From a virus, in the IMG/VR virus record IMGVR_UViG_3300044809_000013, positions 1 to 33,854 of that record: DNA of 33,854 nucleotides; one strand, given 5' to 3'. Shown here in pieces: positions 13,793-25,056 of this stretch (the stretch's first letter is position 1; every line of letters begins with the position of its first letter). A program made the translations under genes and the position numbers. The notes beneath the pieces were generated by a model that saw nothing but the letters and a program-made list of their open reading frames with translations, searched no databases and was not told where the DNA came from.

Positions 13793-16030
13793 TCACGGGT
13801 TGGTTCCGGCCTGGTATGCCGCGATCCATACGGCGCCGTCGGCGCCGTGACCGCCGGCGCCGTAAGCGCCGCCACCTCCCCCGCCCCCGCCAGGCGCCGC
13901 GCCGGGCGCACCGGTGCCGACGTTCCCGCCGCCGGGGTAAGTGACACCGTTGAAAGTCTTGCTGCCGGGTCCTTTGCCTACGGTTTGAGGACCGCTGATG
14001 GCACCCGGGCCGCCCGGCGCGGTGATCGTGGCGACGCCCGTGCCCGTCACGGTGGAATCGCCGCCGTCGCCGCCGGGGACCGCCACGCCACTGCCGCCGG
14101 AGCCGCCGCTGCCGACGGTCACGGTCAGGGTCGTCGTACTGGTGGGGATGTCGATGCCGTAGATCAGGGTCTGTGTGACCCACTGCGCCGCGACGGCTCC
14201 TTGGCCGGTCGCGAAGAACGCCGATGACTCGCCACCGCCGGCGCCACCCAGCCCGGCGACATCGATCTTGTCGCCGTACTTCAGCCAGTTCGGGATCGTG
14301 TAGGTGTAGGTGCCATTCACCAGGAATGGGCTGGTGAGCGGTCCAGCGAAGGCGAACCCGCCCAATCCGAACCACGGAACGACACCGGAGTAGGTGGGGC
14401 TGAACGTGGCCGGCGCGGTGGGCAGCGCGGCCGTGCGGGACGAGCCGAGCTGCTGCGGGTAGACCGTGGGGTTGGCGGGCTTCCAGTCGCTAGGAATGCC
14501 CGCGATCTTGTAGGTGCCCGACCCGACGACGACGATCTCGGCGGCGTACACGTACCCCACCTGAGAGGTGATGGGGGTGACGAGGTCGTAGTAGTTCCAC
14601 GCCAAGGGGTTCGAGACGCTCGACAGGACGTTCGGTGACGCTTCGAGCAGTGTGGCCACGCCGGTGGTGACGTTCAGTTGGTACAGGTTGACGTAGAACG
14701 CCGTAAGGCCGGTCGTGTCTTGGCCGAGCCAGATGATGCAGGACTTCTTGCCGTTGTCGGGTGTGGTGATGAACCCGATCGCCGACGCCGTCGCTGTCAC
14801 GTTGATCGTCGACGACGTCGACCCGTTGAGCTGCGCGATCGGGAACACGGCGTCCGCGGTGGCGTCCATCGCATTCCAGCCCGGTTTGGCGATCGTCTGC
14901 TCTGACTGCGTGGTCGTCGCCGACTCCGCCGCGGACTGCGCCGTCGCGGCCTGGGTGTGTGTTAAACCGAGGAAGTTCGCTAGTGTCCGGATTACGTCGC
15001 CGATGATCGGAATGGGGCCGACGAAGGCGACGAGCGCGTCGACGAACTGCTGGAACGCTTGCTGGATCGCGTTGCCGATGTCGCCGAGCGTCGTCAACAA
15101 GCCTGTGGGATTCAGGATGGTGGTGATGAACGTCTGAGCGGCGTGCAGCGGATTGAAAGTTGGTGAGGCGAAGTTGATTTCGCCGAGGAACTGGAAGAGA
15201 TTGTAGAACGGGTTCGTGGTGTCACCGAGCGGGTTGTTCACCACGCCACCAGCGCCGTGCCACCCGAAGATCGCCAGGATGCTGTCGACCCAGTTGATGA
15301 TCGCTGTCAGGCCGTTGATGAACGGGTCTATCGCGTTGGTGATGAACTCGATCATGTTCCCGAAGTTGGAGATGTCCAGACCGGTGAACAGGTGAATGAT
15401 CGGTGACAGCAGCTGCCCAAGCGGGCCGAGGTTGCCGCCGTTGACACCCAGTGCACCGAACAGTTCGTTCAGCGACGGAAACAGATTCTCGACGCCCTGG
15501 AATAGATCGCCGAACGCGGTGATCAGAGCCTCGATGTCCTTGATGAACTTCTTGTCGATGCCCAGCACGCCGAGCCACGCCTCGATGATGTGGTTGATCA
15601 CGTCGACGAACTGCTGCTGCGGCACGACGTAGCCGAGGAAGAACTTCTCCGCCGCCTCGAACAGGCTGATCGGGAAGGGTCCGTCACCGAACCCGAACAG
15701 TGCCCCGATCGCGGGAAGGATGTACTGCAAGTCACCGAAATCCAATGCGCCCGAAGCTAATTCGCCGCCACCGAACAGAACGATGATGTCGGCGATGAAC
15801 GACTGGATCTGCTGGATCGGGTTCTGGGTGGCCTCGTTGACGCCCTGCTGCGCCTGTTTGACCTGCTTGGCGAGGAACCTGATCTGGGAGTCGTGGCGTT
15901 GCAGCATGTCGATCTGCTGCTGCTGCCCCTGAGACAGATCGGGTGCCGGGGACTCCGAGATCGACGACAGTGCGCGGGATTCCTGCGTGACGTACCCTTG
16001 GCCGCCGAAGCCCGGGACGCTGCCGGTCAC
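13793..16030 (-). CDS. Large minor tail protein, Gly-rich C-terminus
   Basis: 745 residues from GTG 16030, chosen because it overlaps the previous stop as GTGA. The N-terminal part has a Gln-rich coiled coil (SQGQQQQIDMLQRHDSQIRF). A long helical hydrophobic region follows (about 75-375), with repeated Asn/Pro-Ile/Phe segments. A beta-rich central domain with GWNAMDATADAVFPIAQLNG lies at about 385-540. The last 180 residues form a glycine-rich domain after TYTYTIPNWLKYGDKIDVAG. It likely forms the central fibre or baseplate hub region and contacts the cell surface. Position right after the Gp37-like protein supports this. Confidence 0.75.
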   Translation of the reverse strand: MTGSVPGFGGQGYVTQESRALSSISESPAPDLSQGQQQQIDMLQRHDSQIRFLAKQVKQAQQGVNEATQNPIQQIQSFIADIIVLFGGGELASGALDFGDLQYILPAIGALFGFGDGPFPISLFEAAEKFFLGYVVPQQQFVDVINHIIEAWLGVLGIDKKFIKDIEALITAFGDLFQGVENLFPSLNELFGALGVNGGNLGPLGQLLSPIIHLFTGLDISNFGNMIEFITNAIDPFINGLTAIINWVDSILAIFGWHGAGGVVNNPLGDTTNPFYNLFQFLGEINFASPTFNPLHAAQTFITTILNPTGLLTTLGDIGNAIQQAFQQFVDALVAFVGPIPIIGDVIRTLANFLGLTHTQAATAQSAAESATTTQSEQTIAKPGWNAMDATADAVFPIAQLNGSTSSTINVTATASAIGFITTPDNGKKSCIIWLGQDTTGLTAFYVNLYQLNVTTGVATLLEASPNVLSSVSNPLAWNYYDLVTPITSQVGYVYAAEIVVVGSGTYKIAGIPSDWKPANPTVYPQQLGSSRTAALPTAPATFSPTYSGVVPWFGLGGFAFAGPLTSPFLVNGTYTYTIPNWLKYGDKIDVAGLGGAGGGESSAFFATGQGAVAAQWVTQTLIYGIDIPTSTTTLTVTVGSGGSGGSGVAVPGGDGGDSTVTGTGVATITAPGGPGAISGPQTVGKGPGSKTFNGVTYPGGGNVGTGAPGAAPGGGGGGGGAYGAGGHGADGAVWIAAYQAGTNP

Positions 16031-18831
16031 AGGGTGACCTCCGCATCGTCGAACCACACTTGGCCGGCGGTCATCTCAGCGCCGACATGAAGGCGTAGAG
16101 CCACTTTCGTCGCGCCTACAACGGTTGGAGTCAAGACGTTTCCCTTCAGGGTCTGCCACGGCACGATCCCCTTCAGGCCGCTGACGTTGGCGATCTTCAC
16201 CGCCTGGACCGGGTTGAGGGCATCGTCGTAGAACTGGGCGATCAGCTGCACCCCGTTGTCACTGGAAGACACGGCGCCAAGACATTTCACGGATACGGCG
16301 AGCGGGAAGATCTGGAAGTGGCTGAGACCGTATGCCTGGGTCATCAGGTCGTGATCGTGTCCGTCGGCGGTGATGGTGGCCGACCCGAGGCGGGTGACGC
16401 CCTGGCTGGCATCGTGCGTCCAACCCGCCCCGCTGGGCGTCCATCCGTCGAGGTTGTAGTCGAATCCGTGGTTGGTGATCATGTTCGACGACCCGTCGGG
16501 GTAGAAGATCGGGTCATAGTTGAACTCGCCCTCGGCCTTCAGGGTGAGCTGGCAGGCATTCTTCGTGTCGTCGACGGAGATGCCGATGATCTTGTGGTCC
16601 TGGGCGATCTCCCCGATCCACGGCATCGCGCCCGACACGGTGATGGTGTCGCCGACGTCGAACGACCCGAACGGTGCGTTCGGGTGGTGCATGTCGATGG
16701 TGATGGTCTCCCAGTAGGCGGGTGTCTGCCTGCGCGCCAAGAGGCGGTGCGCCCACGCCTTGGATCGTTCGTTGGAGTCGAGGTTGGCGGCGGTCTCGTC
16801 GAGGTAGCGGCGCAACCGGTTCGGGTCGGCGTTGGCCAGCTCGAAGCTGTTGCCGGTGAAGTACACGGTGCCGTTGCGGCGCGCGCACCAGCTCCTGTTC
16901 GGAGTGGTGGGGCACCAGACGACGCCCTTGTGCCAGCGGCGGGTCATGTTGTCCAACATGGACTTCGCCTTGATCTGCGTGCGGTGCGGCGCGTAGATGC
17001 CGAGCACGTACCAGGGCTTGTCGTTCATGGAGTAGAGCCGCTTGGTGGTCTTGCGGCCGGCCAGCTGGCATGCGAACTGCAGCATGTCGATGTTGCATTC
17101 GAACTTCTGGCCAAACGTGGCGTGGTTGGCCGGGTTCCAGTCGGAGTCGCAGTCCGCCCAGACGGAGCAGTTGATGAACAGCTCGAGCTGCGCCTGGGTC
17201 AGGTTGGCAATGAAGTCGTAGCTGACGGCCTTCGTCCGGTAGTCAGTGATGTGCTCGAGCAGGGCGTCCGTGGCAGCGGTACCCAGTCGGATCACAGTGT
17301 TGGCGGAGTTCGACTTCCACACGGCGCCGTCCCAGATGCCGCCCTTGCGGCGCATGTCGGGAAGTTCGGGGCCGAACAGTCGTGTCGCGGCCGCCTTGAT
17401 GCGGGCCATGTGTGCACCCCACTGGGCGATGGTGATCTTGCCGCCGGGCTTGGTATATGTGCCCTCGGTCCAGTACCAGGCCATCAGCTCGACCAGCGCG
17501 TCGTCGTACTTCGGGATGCTCGGCAGATCGACGACCGGTACAGCACAGTCGATCCGGTCGTGGGTCTTGAGTGTGGCAGTGGTTGACCAACGGCGGCCGT
17601 GGTACCGGTCTGCCGTCCGGCCATACTGGACGGGCCAGCGGTGCTCGGCGGTCGTCGCGGAGCTGTGGCCGCGGAACTCCGTCTCGTAGATCCAACGCTC
17701 CCCGTCGAAGACGTTGACCGCTTCGACAGGCTCCCACTCGGCCAGACCCGTGTCGTTGTTCAGGGTCAGCGCCGTGGCGCCGACGTCAATCTCGTCGTAG
17801 CGTCGCCAGCCCTCGCGCGTGAGGGTCTCGGTGTCGTCGGTCACGCAGTACTGGAAGCCGGGGAAAAAGCCGGTCACGCCGACGTCGCTGATCCAGTCGA
17901 TCTGAGTTTCGGTGTGCGGCTTGGCCGACAGCACGTTCTCGTTGAGCACGAACGCCAGATAGGGCTGGATCTTCCCGAGCCGCGGATAGCCGAGTTCGAT
18001 CTTCTTGACGACGTCGGTGCGGTCGTGGTTCCACTCACTGCGTTCGGCGTAATCGAACGGGATGTCGCGGGCCATGGCGTCGATGTAGTCGCCGCAGTCC
18101 AGTTTGTCGGCCGCCCGCACGAACGTCGCGAAGAAGTTCAAGTTCATCGTCGAGCCGTCATAGGAGTAGCCGGGCAGCATCTCCACGCCGCTGGTCGTGG
18201 GGAACACTTCGACGTGGAGGTTGCCGTTCGGGAAGTCCTGCTGCAGGTGCCGCCAGATCTCGACAACCGGTTCGTAGGCATCGTTGGCGATCCAGTTCAG
18301 ATCTTCAAGCCACGGAATTCCTTTCGGATACGCGGCGAAGCCCTTGGCCTTCAGGTGCAGGATTCCGGTCTTCTCGTCGATGTCGGACGGCTGCACTATC
18401 CCCGACACCCAGATCTTGCGTTTGCCCTGCATCGTCTTCTCGATGTGGATGTAGTGCTCCCACGGTTTGAAGTAGATGCCCTGCACTGACGGCTCATTGG
18501 GGTTGACGTCGAACTGGATGTCGCAGCCGGCCGATAGGGCCCGCTGGATGACGAGGTTGGTGACCGTGAGGTCGCGGCTGACGATGGCGCCGCCCTGGGT
18601 TTCCTGCACGATGACGCGGAACCGGTCATCGGGCAGGTAGTCGCCGTTGTCGCCGACCGCGCGCACCAGCTCCCACGAGTAGATGCCGCCGGTGTTGCCA
18701 TGCCGAGGTACGTGCGCGACGGGGCTGGCCGACCAGGTAAACGCGGCGGATGCTGTGCCGCGGCGGGTGCGCTTGCCGACGGGCGTCGCGGCGAGGGTGT
18801 AGCTGCCGGACGCTGTGCCGTGGTTGGCCAT
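16027..18831 (-). CDS. Minor tail protein containing an intein
   Basis: 934 residues before splicing, 601 after. Residues 5-53 hold three repeats of about 20 residues (GTASGSYTL, GTASAAFTW, GNTGGIYSW). Residues about 70-328 and 662-770 are the two halves of a tail-tip protein resembling the Gp37-like minor tail family. Residues about 782-934 form a jelly-roll carbohydrate-binding-like domain (NHGFDYNLDGW to VWFDDAEVTL). Residues 329-661 are an intein whose removal joins GFFPGFQY to SFELANADPN. Tail-tip proteins of this type anchor the fibre to the tube, and the CBM-like end suggests glycan binding. It overlaps the next gene by four bases. A functional tail requires splicing, since the intein interrupts a conserved-looking region. 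Confidence 0.88.
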   Translation of the reverse strand: MANHGTASGSYTLAATPVGKRTRRGTASAAFTWSASPVAHVPRHGNTGGIYSWELVRAVGDNGDYLPDDRFRVIVQETQGGAIVSRDLTVTNLVIQRALSAGCDIQFDVNPNEPSVQGIYFKPWEHYIHIEKTMQGKRKIWVSGIVQPSDIDEKTGILHLKAKGFAAYPKGIPWLEDLNWIANDAYEPVVEIWRHLQQDFPNGNLHVEVFPTTSGVEMLPGYSYDGSTMNLNFFATFVRAADKLDCGDYIDAMARDIPFDYAERSEWNHDRTDVVKKIELGYPRLGKIQPYLAFVLNENVLSAKPHTETQIDWISDVGVTGFFPGFQYCVTDDTETLTREGWRRYDEIDVGATALTLNNDTGLAEWEPVEAVNVFDGERWIYETEFRGHSSATTAEHRWPVQYGRTADRYHGRRWSTTATLKTHDRIDCAVPVVDLPSIPKYDDALVELMAWYWTEGTYTKPGGKITIAQWGAHMARIKAAATRLFGPELPDMRRKGGIWDGAVWKSNSANTVIRLGTAATDALLEHITDYRTKAVSYDFIANLTQAQLELFINCSVWADCDSDWNPANHATFGQKFECNIDMLQFACQLAGRKTTKRLYSMNDKPWYVLGIYAPHRTQIKAKSMLDNMTRRWHKGVVWCPTTPNRSWCARRNGTVYFTGNSFELANADPNRLRRYLDETAANLDSNERSKAWAHRLLARRQTPAYWETITIDMHHPNAPFGSFDVGDTITVSGAMPWIGEIAQDHKIIGISVDDTKNACQLTLKAEGEFNYDPIFYPDGSSNMITNHGFDYNLDGWTPSGAGWTHDASQGVTRLGSATITADGHDHDLMTQAYGLSHFQIFPLAVSVKCLGAVSSSDNGVQLIAQFYDDALNPVQAVKIANVSGLKGIVPWQTLKGNVLTPTVVGATKVALRLHVGAEMTAGQVWFDDAEVTL
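16849..17847 (-). mobile_element. Intein with LAGLIDADG-like endonuclease
   Basis: 333 residues, residues 329-661 of the host protein. The splicing signs are Cys1 in CVTDDTETLTREGW (block A), SATTAEHRWPV (block B, TxxH), GVVWCPTTPNRSWCARRNG then TVYFTGN (blocks F and G) with terminal Asn661, and Ser as the first downstream residue. The usual penultimate histidine is Gly. The centre contains LVELMAWYWTEGTY and LFINCSVWADCDSDW, which resemble the two LAGLIDADG motifs with altered acidic positions. The endonuclease may therefore be weak or inactive. Cys1 and the Asn/Ser codons were checked at 17847 and 16849. Confidence 0.9.
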
Positions 18832-19204: not shown

Positions 19205-20140
19205 TCAGACGGTGTTGTAGGCGTCGCGCCACAGCACGAGGCATGAGCTACTGCTGTTGGTGCTTGTCGCCACCCATGACATCGGCACCGACGTGTCGGC
19301 CGGGATCGTCATACGGTCGAGGTACTTGCTGTTGCCGATCAACGTGTTTCGCCAGTTGGCGCCGTTGGTGTCGACGATGCGCCGCGACCACGGGTAGGTG
19401 TTGACCTCGAGGACGACGCCTTCGGCGATGGTGTGCTGCAGTTGGATCTGATCGTCGCCGATGATCACCAACGGGTTGGTCTGCGGCCCGGTGAGCAACG
19501 CCCGGTACCACGATGGTGCGTCGCCGCCGTCGCGGGTGTAGTTGACGGGATCCGCGCCGTTGGTGAGCACGGTGGCGAATTCGGTGTCGGTGTAGGTGAG
19601 GGTATCGATACGCGCGTACTCGGCGGTCACCTTGTGGAACTGGCTGCCGGGCCGCTTGCGGGTGTAGGTGAATTTCCTTGGGCGGCCGTAGATTCGGCGT
19701 ACACTGCCGTAACCGTCGCAGTAGATCAGTGGTTTGAGCTCACCCCACACTTGGCGGACGTCGTCGGCCTTCCATTCCTTCTGCAGCGCGGTCAGCAGCT
19801 TCGAGGACTTCAGGATCAGATCGTTCGGCAGGGTGTTGTAGCCGTGCCCCATGGGCGCGTTGTCGTAGACGCCCATGGTGAACGTCATCGGACCTGCCTG
19901 CAGGGTGTCCTGCCCCATCCGCGTCTCATTCGACAGCGGGATCTGATAGTCCTGGTTGTTCACGTTGTACGTGGCGATCTGCACGCCGACCACCGGATAC
20001 CGGGTGTGCTCACCAAACACCAGGTCCCCCAGCTGGAACTGGTACGGGCGAAGGTTCTTCGACTCGCCGCCGATCGGCAGCGGCGGCAGCACCAATGGGC
20101 TGAACGTGTACGGAAATGTCAGCGGGAAGGTGCTTGCCAT
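19205..20140 (-). CDS. Distal tail / first minor tail protein
   Basis: 311 residues from ATG 20140, sharing bases with the tape measure stop (TGATG). The opening TFPLTFPYTFSPLVLPPLP and the later region with GDLVFGEHTRYPVVGVQIA fit the first minor tail protein after tape measure in siphoviruses, the Dit-like ring that links tube and tip. The C-terminal part (about 215-311) is a beta-sandwich-like domain with ANWRNTLIGNSKYLDRM. The assignment rests mainly on gene order and size. Confidence 0.75.
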   Translation of the reverse strand: MASTFPLTFPYTFSPLVLPPLPIGGESKNLRPYQFQLGDLVFGEHTRYPVVGVQIATYNVNNQDYQIPLSNETRMGQDTLQAGPMTFTMGVYDNAPMGHGYNTLPNDLILKSSKLLTALQKEWKADDVRQVWGELKPLIYCDGYGSVRRIYGRPRKFTYTRKRPGSQFHKVTAEYARIDTLTYTDTEFATVLTNGADPVNYTRDGGDAPSWYRALLTGPQTNPLVIIGDDQIQLQHTIAEGVVLEVNTYPWSRRIVDTNGANWRNTLIGNSKYLDRMTIPADTSVPMSWVATSTNSSSSCLVLWRDAYNTV

Positions 20141-23100
20141 CAGAAGTTCCCCGGCGCCAAGGCACCGGTGGTGCCGCCCGTGTTGACCATCCACATGGTT
20201 TCATTCATCATCTGCGCCGGTGACTGACCGGGACCGGCGTAGACGTTGAGCTGTTGATTCACTTGCGGATTCGGATTGCCCTGACCGTTGTAGTCGTACC
20301 AGGAGTTCATCCACGACGGAACGTTGGCGGTGTTCTTCTGCTCCGGGTTGTCGTGGCTGTAGGAGATCAGCTGCCCGGTGTTCTTGTTCAGCAGGAATCC
20401 CACGTTGCCCATCAGGTCAGTCCCTCCCACTCCGGTGAGCATGCTCATGAACCGGCCGACGTACCCCGACGCGACCTCGTACACCTGCTGCCCGAAGTCG
20501 ATGGCGGCGTTGACGCCTTGCAGGACGCTGGAGATGAGGGACAAGGCGGATCCGGCCGCGCTGGTGCCGCCGAAGTCGGCGCCGCCGGTGAATGATCCGA
20601 CCGTGGAGACGATGCTGCCGGCGGTGCTGACGATGTCGGCGGCGTAGGTGATGTACTTCTGGACGTCGTCGATGATCTTGTTGATGTCCTCGGTGTTGCG
20701 GACGCCGTACACCAGGCGGTCGGCGATGTCCTGCGTCCCGGCCAACGCATCGAGACCACTACCGATCGACTTGAACACACCCGACACGGCGCCGGAGATT
20801 CCGCCGGCCAGTGACTGCGCTTGGGACAGTGTGCTGGGCTGCTGGGTGAAGCCCTGCTGCTGGGCGATCGAGCTTTGGGTGCTCTGCAACGCATCGATGG
20901 TGTTCTTGTTGCCGATGGCGTCCTGCGATCTGAGGGTGTCGATGGTCTTGGTGATCCCGGATAGCGTGCCCGTCACCGTCTCGTCGGATGCTCCGGGGGT
21001 TTTCGCGGCGCTGATCTGCTGCGCGAGTTCTGGGTTGCCCTGCAGGTAGGACTGCAGTAGTTGGTCGTTGGCCGAGGCAGTCTTGCCGGTGTTGTCGACG
21101 AGCTGGCCGAGGGTCTTCCCTGATGGGAGGACCATCCCCGAGTTGACGGAGGCGCCCACACCGGGCGGCGTCTGAGCGGACAGCGGCGTCGGAGCCCCGG
21201 GTAAAACGAGGGGGGCGGATTGCCGTGTGTGGACGTGGTTCTGGTGCTCGGCGTAGGAGCCTTCACCCGTGTCTGGGTAGTAGCCCGTCGTCGGGTTGCC
21301 GCGGCCACCGAGCCCGATCTTCTGCATCGTGTTGGGGTTCTGCCAGATGATCTGTTCCAGCCCTGGCATGTTGGGTGCGTTCTGGGACAGGAATTCGGCG
21401 AACCGTTGCATGTTCTCCACTGAGCCCGACCAGTCGATGCCGCGGTTCTCGTGGGTGGGGTTGGGCGCGTAGCCGGCATCGTGGCGGTCGGATTCCTGAT
21501 GTCCGGCGTAGGTGCTGGGCTTGACCCCGAACTGGGCGGCCATCGCCATTACCCACTCCGGGAAGGTCTTCGCGTTGCCAGTGCCGTATCCGCCGGTGTC
21601 GGTTCCCGTCGGCAGGCCATACGTCCCTGAAGGCGGCGCTGCAGGCGTGGGCGCGGCGGGATACCAGTTGGCGTAGTCCGCGGCCCCGCTTTTACTTCCG
21701 CCGTTGACTTGTCCCCACGTTGGGCCGGTGACGCCGGGCCCGAGCGAGCCCATGATGGAGTTCGCGAGTCCCAGCTGATTGCTGATGGCATTCCAGTAGT
21801 CCGAACCCTTTGCGCCCGAGCCGAGTTGCGGGTTCTGCGTTAGCACCGCGGCCAGCTGTGGGTCGGTCGGGTTCTTCGCCAGATTCTTCTGGAATGCGTC
21901 GTAGAACGCGTTGATCGCATGGTTGGGGTCGTTGACCTGATCCAGCGTTCCCCAGCCGGAGCTCGGCGACTGCTGGTACAACCCCGACACCAGGCCGGCC
22001 GAACCTTGCACACCACCAGAAATGGTGGGATCGAAACCACTCTCAGCGGCTGCTGTGGCGAGCGCCGTCTGGATCGCGGCGTCGTTCAAGCCCCGCGCGC
22101 GGCCGGCCGCGATGATGGCCTTCTGAATGTCGGTCTTGCTCGACGACGACGACAGGCCCAGCGGGGTCGCCGCTCCCCCACCGGTCGCCGTCCCCGGCGC
22201 GCCCGCACCGAACACATCCGTCCACGACGGCCCCTTAGCGCCCCCCTGCACCGCCTTCTTCTGCAGATCGGACTGCTGCTGCGCCGCGATCTCCTTCGGC
22301 GAAAGCTTGCGCCACGTCTGATCATTCGCACCCGGCAGCATCCCCAAACCCTGGAACAGAGGCTGCATGACCGACTGGCTGAGCAGATTGAACCCGCTCT
22401 GCGCCACATCGAGACCGGCGCGGAGACTCTTCGCCAAACCCTTCAGACCGTGAGTGTCGGAGAACTGATGACGCAGATAGGCGGTCAGGATGCTGGTGTC
22501 AGCGTTCGCGATGTTGTCCGGGAGCAACGCACCACCGACGGTGTCACTGCCTCCCGGCGACGGCGCACCACCAGTGCCGCCCGCGGCCCGGCCTGCTCCG
22601 GAGAGCGCGCCGCTAGCCGCCGCAGCCGTACCCGCTGCCGCGGCCTCGATCGCAGGCTGCGCCGACGCCATGCCCGCCGCCATGTCCGTGACCATCTTCT
22701 GACCGCGAATCAGGGTGTATCCCGAACCCGAGAACGGGCCCACCTTCGCGGGCGAGGACTGGAACCACTTCGCGATCGCCAGGACGACGTCCTTCGCCGC
22801 GCCGCCAACGGATCCGAGACCGTTCGTGATACCCCTGACCAGTCCGTCGATCAGGCTCGTACCCCAGTTCTCGGCCTTCTGCGGCAAGCCCGTGAAGAAA
22901 TTCGTGATCCCATCCATGATCTGATGAAAGAGGCCGGGAATCTTGTGGACGAGATCGTCTGCACCCCTACCGATGCCGTTCAACCAGCCCACCACGTCAC
23001 CGGCGATCCGGATGATCGTGGCCAGAATGGCCACGAAATCCCCGAACCCCTTTACGAGGGTCGGTAGATTCGGCAATAGCGAAGTGATCACCGACAGGAC

Positions 23101-25056
23101 AGCCTGGAATAGCCCTGGCAGCTGCGGGCCGACGGCCTCGACCAGCTGCACGAAGGCGTAGACGAGCGGCTGCACCTGCGGTATCAGCGCCAGGAACGCG
23201 TCGGAGAGGGCCCTGAAGATTCCTGGCAGCTCAGGACCAACCGATGCCATCAGCTGTTGGAACGCCTGACCCAACCCACTCAGAAAGCTCGACAACGATG
23301 GCCCGAGCGCCACCAGCTGCGGAGCAAGCTGAGCCATCGTCTGCGCGAACGAGTCGAAGAACACCTGCCAGCCCGGAGCAGTCCCCACACCCATCTGCAC
23401 GATCGCCGTACCGATCGACGCGAGGCCGTCGACGAGTGGCGGAAGCATCGGCATCAGTGCGTCGGTGGCCTGCCTGAGCACGGTGAAGAAGTCGGTGAGC
23501 GACTTCTGCCCGTCGGCGGACTGCGTCCACTTGTTGAACTGGTCGGTCAGCTTGTCCAACCAGCCCAGAAGCCCACCGCCGCCAAACTTGTCGGCCACAT
23601 CCATGATCTGCAGGAACGCCGAACCCACATTGCCCGCAATGTTGATCAGATGACTGAACGCGTTGATGCCGTCCTGAATCCACTGCTGCAACTGCCCCGA
23701 AGACGCCAGCCGTTGGATCATCTCGGACAGCGGGCCCAGGAACTGCGAAACCATGCCCCCGATCTGCTGGAAGAACCCCGACCCCACAACCGTCAGCTGA
23801 TCGAAGATGTTGAACAGCGGCTGGATCGTCGGTTCCAACGCCACCAGGCCCTTGACCATGTTGTCCATGAACATCGTCAGGCCCTGCTGCGCCGCAGGTG
23901 TGCTCAGCAAGCGGGCGAGCTCGTCGGCGGCCCACCCGAACGTCGCGGCGATCTTCGACATGCCCGACGTGAGGGTGGGCAGCAGCGTCTGAATCAGCGG
24001 GCCGATGTCCTTCGCCACCTGGCTGAAGAATGAATCCTGGATCGTCGCGCCGGCCATCTTGAACTGGTCGCGGAACTGCGCGACCTGCAGCATCGCCTGC
24101 GCCGCGACCGGACCCATGTTCTTGATGTCCTCGAGGAACTTCTTCGGATCATCCGCCATCATGTCCTGCAAGGCGCTGTCCACCCCGTGCAGCGCGATTT
24201 GCAGTGTTCCCATAGATAATTCGACACCGGAGATGACCGCGGGCAGCAATCCCAGCGCACCGGAAAGCTGCTTGGCCGCATCAACCATGCCGACGATGCC
24301 CTGCAGGGCCGCGCCGCCGCCCAGGCCCGCCAGACCCGCCAGTGACGGCACCGCCAAAGTCAGACCCGCGATCTTGCCGAACGCCACCTCGAAACCCGCG
24401 ACGCTCCCCGCGAAACCCGCGACCGCCGAACCTGCACTGGAGGCGGCCGAGCCGATCGCGTCGATGCCCTTGGCTGCCGCGGCGATCTCCGGCTGTCCCA
24501 AGGCCAGGGCCACCTTCGACACCAACCCCAACGCACCCGACAGCTCCTTGGCCTTCTCGGTGGTGTCCTGCTGGGCCGTGCCCAACTTGCCCAAACTGCC
24601 CGACAATCCCGGGATCAAATTGGATAGACCATCAATAGCCCGCCGGAAGCCCGACATCTCACCCGTGAGCGCCTTCTGCGCATCACGGGCCGCGGTGGCT
24701 GCTGCTGTGTGCTTCTTCCGCGATTCGGTGACACGATCCTCGGCGGCCTTGATGTCCTCGAGGGTCGACCTGGAATCCAGCAGTGCGCTGCGGTGCCCCC
24801 GCTCGGCGGCCTCGACGTCACGGCTGGCCGATTCGACCTGCCGCAACCGGGACTGATATCCGTCAGCCGAGCTGCCCGCCGATTCGAATTCCTTCTCGGT
24901 ATCTTGGAGTGTCCGTTGGGTTTTGGTCAGCGACTTGTCGGTGGCATCCGAGGACTTGGTGACCGCGTCCAGGTCCTTCGCGGCCTTGTCCGCGCCGGAG
25001 CCGTCATAATCGATCTGGATCTGGCCATGCGCCCGACCCAAGCTGTAGTCGGGCAT
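20140..25056 (-). CDS. Tape measure protein with peptidoglycan-hydrolase-like domains
   Basis: 1638 residues. Residues 1-170 form charged coiled coil (KAAEDRVTESRKKHTAAATA). Two alternating hydrophobic stretches and long amphipathic helices typical of tape measure proteins follow to about 900. Near residues 985-1090 is a lysozyme/transglycosylase-like segment (ALATAAAESGFDPTI, GLYQQSPSSGWGTLDQV). Near 1170-1285 is a second enzyme-like domain with His/Asp residues (HQESDRHDAGY, THENRGIDWSG, YAEHQNHVHTRQ) like D-Ala-D-Ala peptidase-type folds. The protein sets tail length, threads the tube and likely helps local wall penetration at DNA entry. It follows the chaperone genes as expected. Confidence 0.93.
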   Translation of the reverse strand: MPDYSLGRAHGQIQIDYDGSGADKAAKDLDAVTKSSDATDKSLTKTQRTLQDTEKEFESAGSSADGYQSRLRQVESASRDVEAAERGHRSALLDSRSTLEDIKAAEDRVTESRKKHTAAATAARDAQKALTGEMSGFRRAIDGLSNLIPGLSGSLGKLGTAQQDTTEKAKELSGALGLVSKVALALGQPEIAAAAKGIDAIGSAASSAGSAVAGFAGSVAGFEVAFGKIAGLTLAVPSLAGLAGLGGGAALQGIVGMVDAAKQLSGALGLLPAVISGVELSMGTLQIALHGVDSALQDMMADDPKKFLEDIKNMGPVAAQAMLQVAQFRDQFKMAGATIQDSFFSQVAKDIGPLIQTLLPTLTSGMSKIAATFGWAADELARLLSTPAAQQGLTMFMDNMVKGLVALEPTIQPLFNIFDQLTVVGSGFFQQIGGMVSQFLGPLSEMIQRLASSGQLQQWIQDGINAFSHLINIAGNVGSAFLQIMDVADKFGGGGLLGWLDKLTDQFNKWTQSADGQKSLTDFFTVLRQATDALMPMLPPLVDGLASIGTAIVQMGVGTAPGWQVFFDSFAQTMAQLAPQLVALGPSLSSFLSGLGQAFQQLMASVGPELPGIFRALSDAFLALIPQVQPLVYAFVQLVEAVGPQLPGLFQAVLSVITSLLPNLPTLVKGFGDFVAILATIIRIAGDVVGWLNGIGRGADDLVHKIPGLFHQIMDGITNFFTGLPQKAENWGTSLIDGLVRGITNGLGSVGGAAKDVVLAIAKWFQSSPAKVGPFSGSGYTLIRGQKMVTDMAAGMASAQPAIEAAAAGTAAAASGALSGAGRAAGGTGGAPSPGGSDTVGGALLPDNIANADTSILTAYLRHQFSDTHGLKGLAKSLRAGLDVAQSGFNLLSQSVMQPLFQGLGMLPGANDQTWRKLSPKEIAAQQQSDLQKKAVQGGAKGPSWTDVFGAGAPGTATGGGAATPLGLSSSSSKTDIQKAIIAAGRARGLNDAAIQTALATAAAESGFDPTISGGVQGSAGLVSGLYQQSPSSGWGTLDQVNDPNHAINAFYDAFQKNLAKNPTDPQLAAVLTQNPQLGSGAKGSDYWNAISNQLGLANSIMGSLGPGVTGPTWGQVNGGSKSGAADYANWYPAAPTPAAPPSGTYGLPTGTDTGGYGTGNAKTFPEWVMAMAAQFGVKPSTYAGHQESDRHDAGYAPNPTHENRGIDWSGSVENMQRFAEFLSQNAPNMPGLEQIIWQNPNTMQKIGLGGRGNPTTGYYPDTGEGSYAEHQNHVHTRQSAPLVLPGAPTPLSAQTPPGVGASVNSGMVLPSGKTLGQLVDNTGKTASANDQLLQSYLQGNPELAQQISAAKTPGASDETVTGTLSGITKTIDTLRSQDAIGNKNTIDALQSTQSSIAQQQGFTQQPSTLSQAQSLAGGISGAVSGVFKSIGSGLDALAGTQDIADRLVYGVRNTEDINKIIDDVQKYITYAADIVSTAGSIVSTVGSFTGGADFGGTSAAGSALSLISSVLQGVNAAIDFGQQVYEVASGYVGRFMSMLTGVGGTDLMGNVGFLLNKNTGQLISYSHDNPEQKNTANVPSWMNSWYDYNGQGNPNPQVNQQLNVYAGPGQSPAQMMNETMWMVNTGGTTGALAPGNF

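Follow-up and report, generated by a model that had tools for sequence, protein, structure and literature searches.

Can a protein at the tip of a phage tail host a working intein? The question is raised by a minus-strand reading frame in the IMG/VR virus record IMGVR_UViG_3300044809_000013, of which all 33,854 nucleotides were analyzed (hereafter, the window). A first-pass annotation had described an intein inside a tail-tip protein there and had proposed that its splicing acts as a conditional switch for making infectious tails. We investigated the insertion site, fold, catalytic residues, host protein, and relatives of this element (Table 1).

Table 1. Features of the precursor gene, its intein, and the neighboring tail genes, in window coordinates.
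Feature	Position	Strand	Evidence or conservation
Tape measure gene	20140-25056	(-)	Transcribed ahead of the precursor gene
Minor tail gene, distal-tail position	19205-20194		Between tape measure and precursor gene in transcription order
Precursor ORF, 934 aa	16027..18831	(-)	Minor tail protein (phrog_1885) plus intein
N-extein, residues 1-328; predicted hub fold from ~residue 67	17848..18831	(-)	phrog_1885, E 1.4e-133; hub fold in homologue L006
Intein, 333 aa, Cys1 to Asn333 (precursor residues 329-661)	16849..17847	(-)	Exact gap in intein-free homologues; HINT and LAGLIDADG model
Cys1, block A nucleophile	17845..17847	(-)	Cys in 98/98 relatives with a residue there; remaining row, L117, decayed
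Block B TAEH-R-W: Thr66 (B:7), His69 (B:10), Trp71 (B:12)	17635..17652	(-)	Thr 93/99, His 99/99, Trp 96/99
Predicted LAGLIDADG homing endonuclease domain, ~intein residues 112-291	16975..17514	(-)	I-DmoI match; omega 0.21
First LAGLIDADG motif LMAWYWTEG, catalytic acid Glu128	17461..17487	(-)	Glu 95/99, Asp 4/99
Second LAGLIDADG motif INCSVWADC, catalytic acid Asp232	17149..17175	(-)	Asp 96/99
Block F Trp311-Cys312 (F:3-F:4)	16912..16917	(-)	Trp 99/99, Cys 98/99
Block G Thr331-Gly332-Asn333, Gly for the penultimate His	16849..16857	(-)	Thr 99/99, Gly 98/99, Asn 97/99
Ser+1, first residue of the C-extein	16846..16848	(-)	Ser in all listed intein-free homologues
C-extein, 273 aa: end of predicted hub fold, then carbohydrate-binding-like domain (~16464 to 16030)	16030..16848	(-)	phrog_746 and phrog_346

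Insertion site and boundaries

The insert is a real intein. It translates as an open run of 333 residues (CVTDDT...VYFTGN), and the flanks without it join in frame (...FPGFQY/SFELANADP..., the slash marking the site) into a hub of 601 aa. Approximately 20 intein-free homologues are continuous through the site (…FPGFEY/SxELANADP…), with no scar. These include L006 (70% identical; …GFWPGFQY/SAELANADP…) and L007 (65% identical; …GFFPGFEY/SYELANADP…), both free of any gap or scar there, and the site is also empty in L131-L138, in the more distant L139-L141 and L143-L145, and in gp39 of phage Onyinye. All 20 rows of alignment A6 run on across the site, where sequence conservation is only moderate (33rd percentile). 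The clean gap falls exactly at precursor residues 329-661, so the homologue alignment that the first-pass annotation had named as a check upheld its placement of the intein.

The same site is occupied in one further IMG/VR record (L005/L002), whose intein is 71% identical to that of the window. The window extein is nearer to the intein-free L006 and L007 (69%) than to the intein-bearing L005 (61%), indicating that intein presence does not track extein kinship. Additionally, dS between the two same-site copies was higher for the intein (1.17) than for the extein (0.82), and so offers no indication that homing recently passed the intein from one to the other.

Fold and endonuclease domain

Searches of Pfam, NCBIfam, and PHROGs returned no match in the window intein itself; three of its relatives match Pfam LAGLIDADG_3. 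An AlphaFold model built with 59 family sequences (pLDDT 93, pTM 0.92) shows a LAGLIDADG endonuclease fold set into a HINT splicing domain. Intein structures match it at Z 14-25, the best matches over the whole length being the endonuclease-bearing inteins TliVMA (Z 25.3 and 25.1) and PI-PfuI (Z 22.2). I-DmoI matches model residues 117-296 (Z ~14).

The predicted enzyme has both LAGLIDADG motifs and two catalytic acids. The motifs had been described as altered, and they do look atypical, but Glu128 and Asp232 are kept and only the residue after Asp232 is peculiar: position 233 is Cys in the window intein (1/99), Gly in 80/99, and Ala in L002, so that neither same-site copy has the second-motif Gly. 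Replacement of this Gly by Cys233 could weaken the endonuclease. Both domains are nevertheless under purifying selection: between the two same-site copies, omega was 0.15 for the splicing domain and 0.21 for the endonuclease domain (95% 0.13-0.31), with overlapping bootstrap intervals.

Splicing residues and chemical class

Residue counts come from an alignment of 99 of the full-length relatives that IMG/VR, GTDB genomes, and phage records yielded. The window intein has a position 1 nucleophile (Cys1), the B:10 His (His69), a terminal Asn (Asn333), and Ser+1. The +1 residue is Ser, Thr, or Cys in 97 of the 99 relatives (53, 37, and 7, respectively). No cysteine besides Cys1 and Cys312 is conserved in the family. 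The first-pass reading of the splicing blocks (Cys1, TxxH, and VYFTGN/S, with FQY joined to SFE in frame) was thus corroborated by both the translation and the alignment. It had also pointed out Gly in place of the penultimate His; this Gly is indeed present at residue 332, but it is the family norm rather than a defect. Gly, Lys, and Ser all occur at the penultimate position of mycobacteriophage inteins; one phage intein whose native residue there is Gly spliced completely, whereas its Gly-to-His mutant needed >5 h to reach about half (PMC5050341).

Two copies, L113 (Streptomyces tateyamensis) and L117 (Streptomyces sp. TBY4), illustrate apparent decay in this family: although retained in their genomes, they have lost several catalytic residues together, namely the terminal Asn, the +1 nucleophile, and either Cys1 or the F:4 Cys.

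A feature absent from the first-pass annotation is the WCT signature of class 3 inteins, formed by Trp71 (B:12), Cys312 (F:4), and Thr331 (G:5) and conserved in 96, 98, and 99 of the 99 aligned relatives, respectively; a Trp-Cys-Thr triplet at these positions defines class 3 (PMC3196547, PMC5222942). The family also has the class 1 features Cys1 (98/98) and the TxxH Thr66 (93/99). Class 3 inteins can do without a position 1 nucleophile (PMC5222942), and they generally have no Thr at B:7, the TxxH residue that assists position 1 in class 1 inteins (PMC6195587). Cys is the second commonest F:4 residue in class 1 inteins as well (PMC4031507), so the signature alone does not settle the class, and we did not file the window intein as class 3 because Cys1 is invariant. 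Judging from the aligned sequences, the family joins the class 3 WCT to an invariant class 1 Cys1 and TxxH, and may use the chemistry of either class or a mixture. Such a combination may have been described before: Tori and Perler 2011 reportedly "expanded the definition" of class 3.

Against the PDB, a 9-row family profile gave weak matches with class 3 AceL first (E 0.002), and a 59-row profile gave weak matches with RecA inteins first (E 0.19); being weak and discordant, they indicate that sequence cannot settle the class. The splicing domain alone matched class 3 AceL NrdHF best (6zgq; Z 20.1, rmsd 1.8 Å over 149 residues), and among the splicing domains listed, class 3 Msm DnaB1 (6bs8) and Mch DnaB1 (6rix) had the highest identity (24-25%). 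The Pinkcreek terminase intein, read by eye, apparently lacks the F:4 Cys.

Asn cyclization is usually helped by the F:13 and G:6 His. Both are missing in the window intein, which has no His after residue 306. AceL NrdHF likewise lacks both (PMC7891396). Arg324 is kept in 97/99 and Trp320 in 93/99 relatives, and one might speculate that they are candidate stand-ins. A mixed route, in which both cysteines would be obligatory, the N-extein would move from Cys1 to Cys312 and then to Ser+1, and Asn cyclization would be helped by residues other than the usual His, such as Arg324 or His69, is conceivable, although we regard it as doubtful.

Host protein

The extein matches PHROG 1885, a minor tail protein. 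As a stand-in for the extein, we modeled the intein-free homologue L006, with low confidence (mean pLDDT 57, and <50 around the insertion site). In this low-confidence model, baseplate hubs from a wide range of phages and from contractile systems match residues 63-432 (Z 12-15), among them a baseplate chain of hub size from Mycobacteriophage Douge (Z 13.4), and residues 453-595 match carbohydrate-binding modules and the CBM of the Douge central fibre (Z 13.9). Gene order is also that expected of a siphophage baseplate hub gene, with the tape measure and a distal-tail gene transcribed before the precursor gene. The host protein is therefore best read, on the strength of this predicted fold and gene order, as a trimeric baseplate hub with a carbohydrate-binding-like domain, in agreement with the tail-tip location first suggested. 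We dropped an attempt to place the insertion on the extein structure, as the model was too poor near the site.

In mycobacteriophages, a trimeric hub beneath the distal tail ring shuts off the tail tube (PMC13252515, PMC13033339). An insert of 333 aa inside the hub fold should block such a tight trimer, and tail assembly probably requires splicing for that reason. Accordingly, the dependence of tail-tip maturation on splicing, as first proposed, seems probable, but the proposal of a switch lacks support.

The tape measure protein contains a lysozyme/endolysin-like stretch at about residues 972-1134 (phrog_29272 endolysin, E 1e-12).

Relatives and their host genes

In 71 family members, the N-exteins belong mainly to portal proteins (phrog_776 in 15, phrog_12 in 12) and terminase large subunits, and more rarely to methylases, exonucleases, a helicase, and a sigma factor; the C-exteins agree. 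These matches bear out that phage inteins mostly sit in portal and terminase genes; the first-pass annotation had named terminase, polymerase, or helicase genes. The host list of Kelley et al. 2016 likewise includes terminase, portal, methylase, and others, with no tail gene (PMC5050341). The statement that a tail gene is an uncommon home holds, but such a home is not unique: a relative (L065, 2501-3532) interrupts a Sipho_Gp37-like (phrog_110) minor tail protein at a different site, and others occur in a tail-tube protein (L071), a neck protein (L060), and the virion structural protein gp135 of Pinkcreek. The tape measure gene of Gordonia phage Mcklovin (L127, 2501-2872) gave a match to the N-terminal part of the intein (query 1-130). 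Searching 401 genomes from a single actinobacterial family with the precursor gave no hub-type match.

For the methylase matches, we considered a 202-aa "ShiLan domain" with an out-of-frame HNH endonuclease (PMC11855218) and rejected it: the matches span Cys1 to Asn and, as they cover the whole intein, fit an intein of the methylase's own. Relatives also occur in Streptosporangiales and Streptomycetaceae genomes (L097-L103, L105, L107-L112, L115, and L116). The flanks that were inspected among them have the form GW-x-(D/C)-(I/V)-GY/(S/T), by eye resembling a motif of the PGRP/amidase fold, and the L103 C-extein carries PG_binding_1; the intein may here interrupt the gene of a prophage endolysin or of a cell-wall amidase. 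Synechococcus phage B23 (L126, 1501-2520) has a distant full-length relative (26%) in a cyanophage gp55-like late sigma factor gene.

Interpretation

Exact boundaries, sporadic presence at the same site, intact residues in both domains, fold, and purifying selection together argue that the baseplate hub gene of a mycobacteriophage-like siphophage carries a mobile intein that is complete and probably active, a reading that we consider highly probable. The 934-aa precursor would be translated and the intein would cut itself out, the N-extein passing to Ser+1 via a thioester on Cys1, Cys312, or both, and Asn333 cyclizing without the usual helper His residues. The 601-aa hub would then fold, trimerize, and seal the tail tube. 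The endonuclease would cut intein-free hub genes of co-infecting phages, and repair would copy the intein in. There is no obvious gain to the phage; the element may persist because failed splicing would remove the hub.

A splicing-competent intein might instead have a dead endonuclease, so that it is inherited with the phage and no longer mobile. Loss of the second-motif Gly from both same-site copies and the lack of any trace of recent transfer between them point in this direction; however, both catalytic acids are kept, the omega of the endonuclease overlaps that of the splicing domain, and site occupancy is sporadic, which makes this reading rather unlikely. Complete decay, with the insert kept as a hub loop without splicing, would fit the absence of the penultimate His and of a block F helper His, yet every nucleophile is intact, the Gly is shared by the family, and the splicing domain is conserved at the omega given above; we find such decay highly improbable. 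As the window is a single IMG/VR record, one may also think of an assembly chimera or sequencing artefact, but an independent record with the same element at the same site and 29% divergence contradicts this, leaving a negligible chance.

The switch would require splicing to be held back or triggered, e.g., by oxidation that links Cys1 to Cys312, thereby gating infectious tails. Two reactive cysteines are indeed conserved, and the class 3 DnaB intein of M. smegmatis has been described as redox-controlled (PMC6195587). Conversely, no result of the present analysis supports regulation, cysteines other than 1 and 312 are unconserved, and the published phage intein with penultimate Gly splices completely (PMC5050341). 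We therefore regard the switch as very unlikely.

With an active mobile intein in this gene, the baseplate hub, which gates the tail tube, joins the proteins that an intein can occupy, and protein splicing would be needed for each virion with a hub intein. Of greatest interest is the joint occurrence of class 1 and class 3 signatures in almost all 99 copies in the absence of the usual helper His; this mixed family bears on whether an intermediate of this kind gave rise to class 3 chemistry.

Comparison with known systems

The inteins of Gordonia and Mycobacterium phages, namely those of the Woes portal (annotated "contains intein"), the Belphegor portal, the GMA3 terminase, and Pinkcreek gp135, are 35-39% identical to the window intein over all 333 residues and share its Cys1, WCT signature, TGN ending, and LAGLIDADG domain, but their host genes and insertion sites differ from those of the window. 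What the window adds is thus a new insertion site for a large, known kind of phage intein, although we do not claim priority for the site. TliVMA and PhoVMA (7qss, 7qst) likewise combine HINT with an inserted LAGLIDADG domain over the whole length (Z 23-25), whereas their identity to the window intein is ~15% and their host is an archaeal ATPase. Class 3 AceL NrdHF, Msm DnaB1, and Mch DnaB1 have the W, C, and T positions in common with the window intein; however, class 3 inteins need no position 1 nucleophile and generally lack the TxxH Thr, whereas in the window family Cys1 is constant and the Thr nearly so. The RDF intein of mycobacteriophage Bethlehem (PMC5050341), a class 1 phage intein, has a penultimate Gly like that of the window and splices completely, but it sits in a different host protein, and we liken the two by published description only. 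As for the host protein, structures from Douge (8zdo, 8zdq), namely its baseplate hub and its central fibre, resemble the low-confidence model of the extein homologue L006, whereas their sequence similarity to it is low and no intein is reported in their genes. What is unusual about the window intein is only its address, that is, its host gene, and its mixed chemistry.
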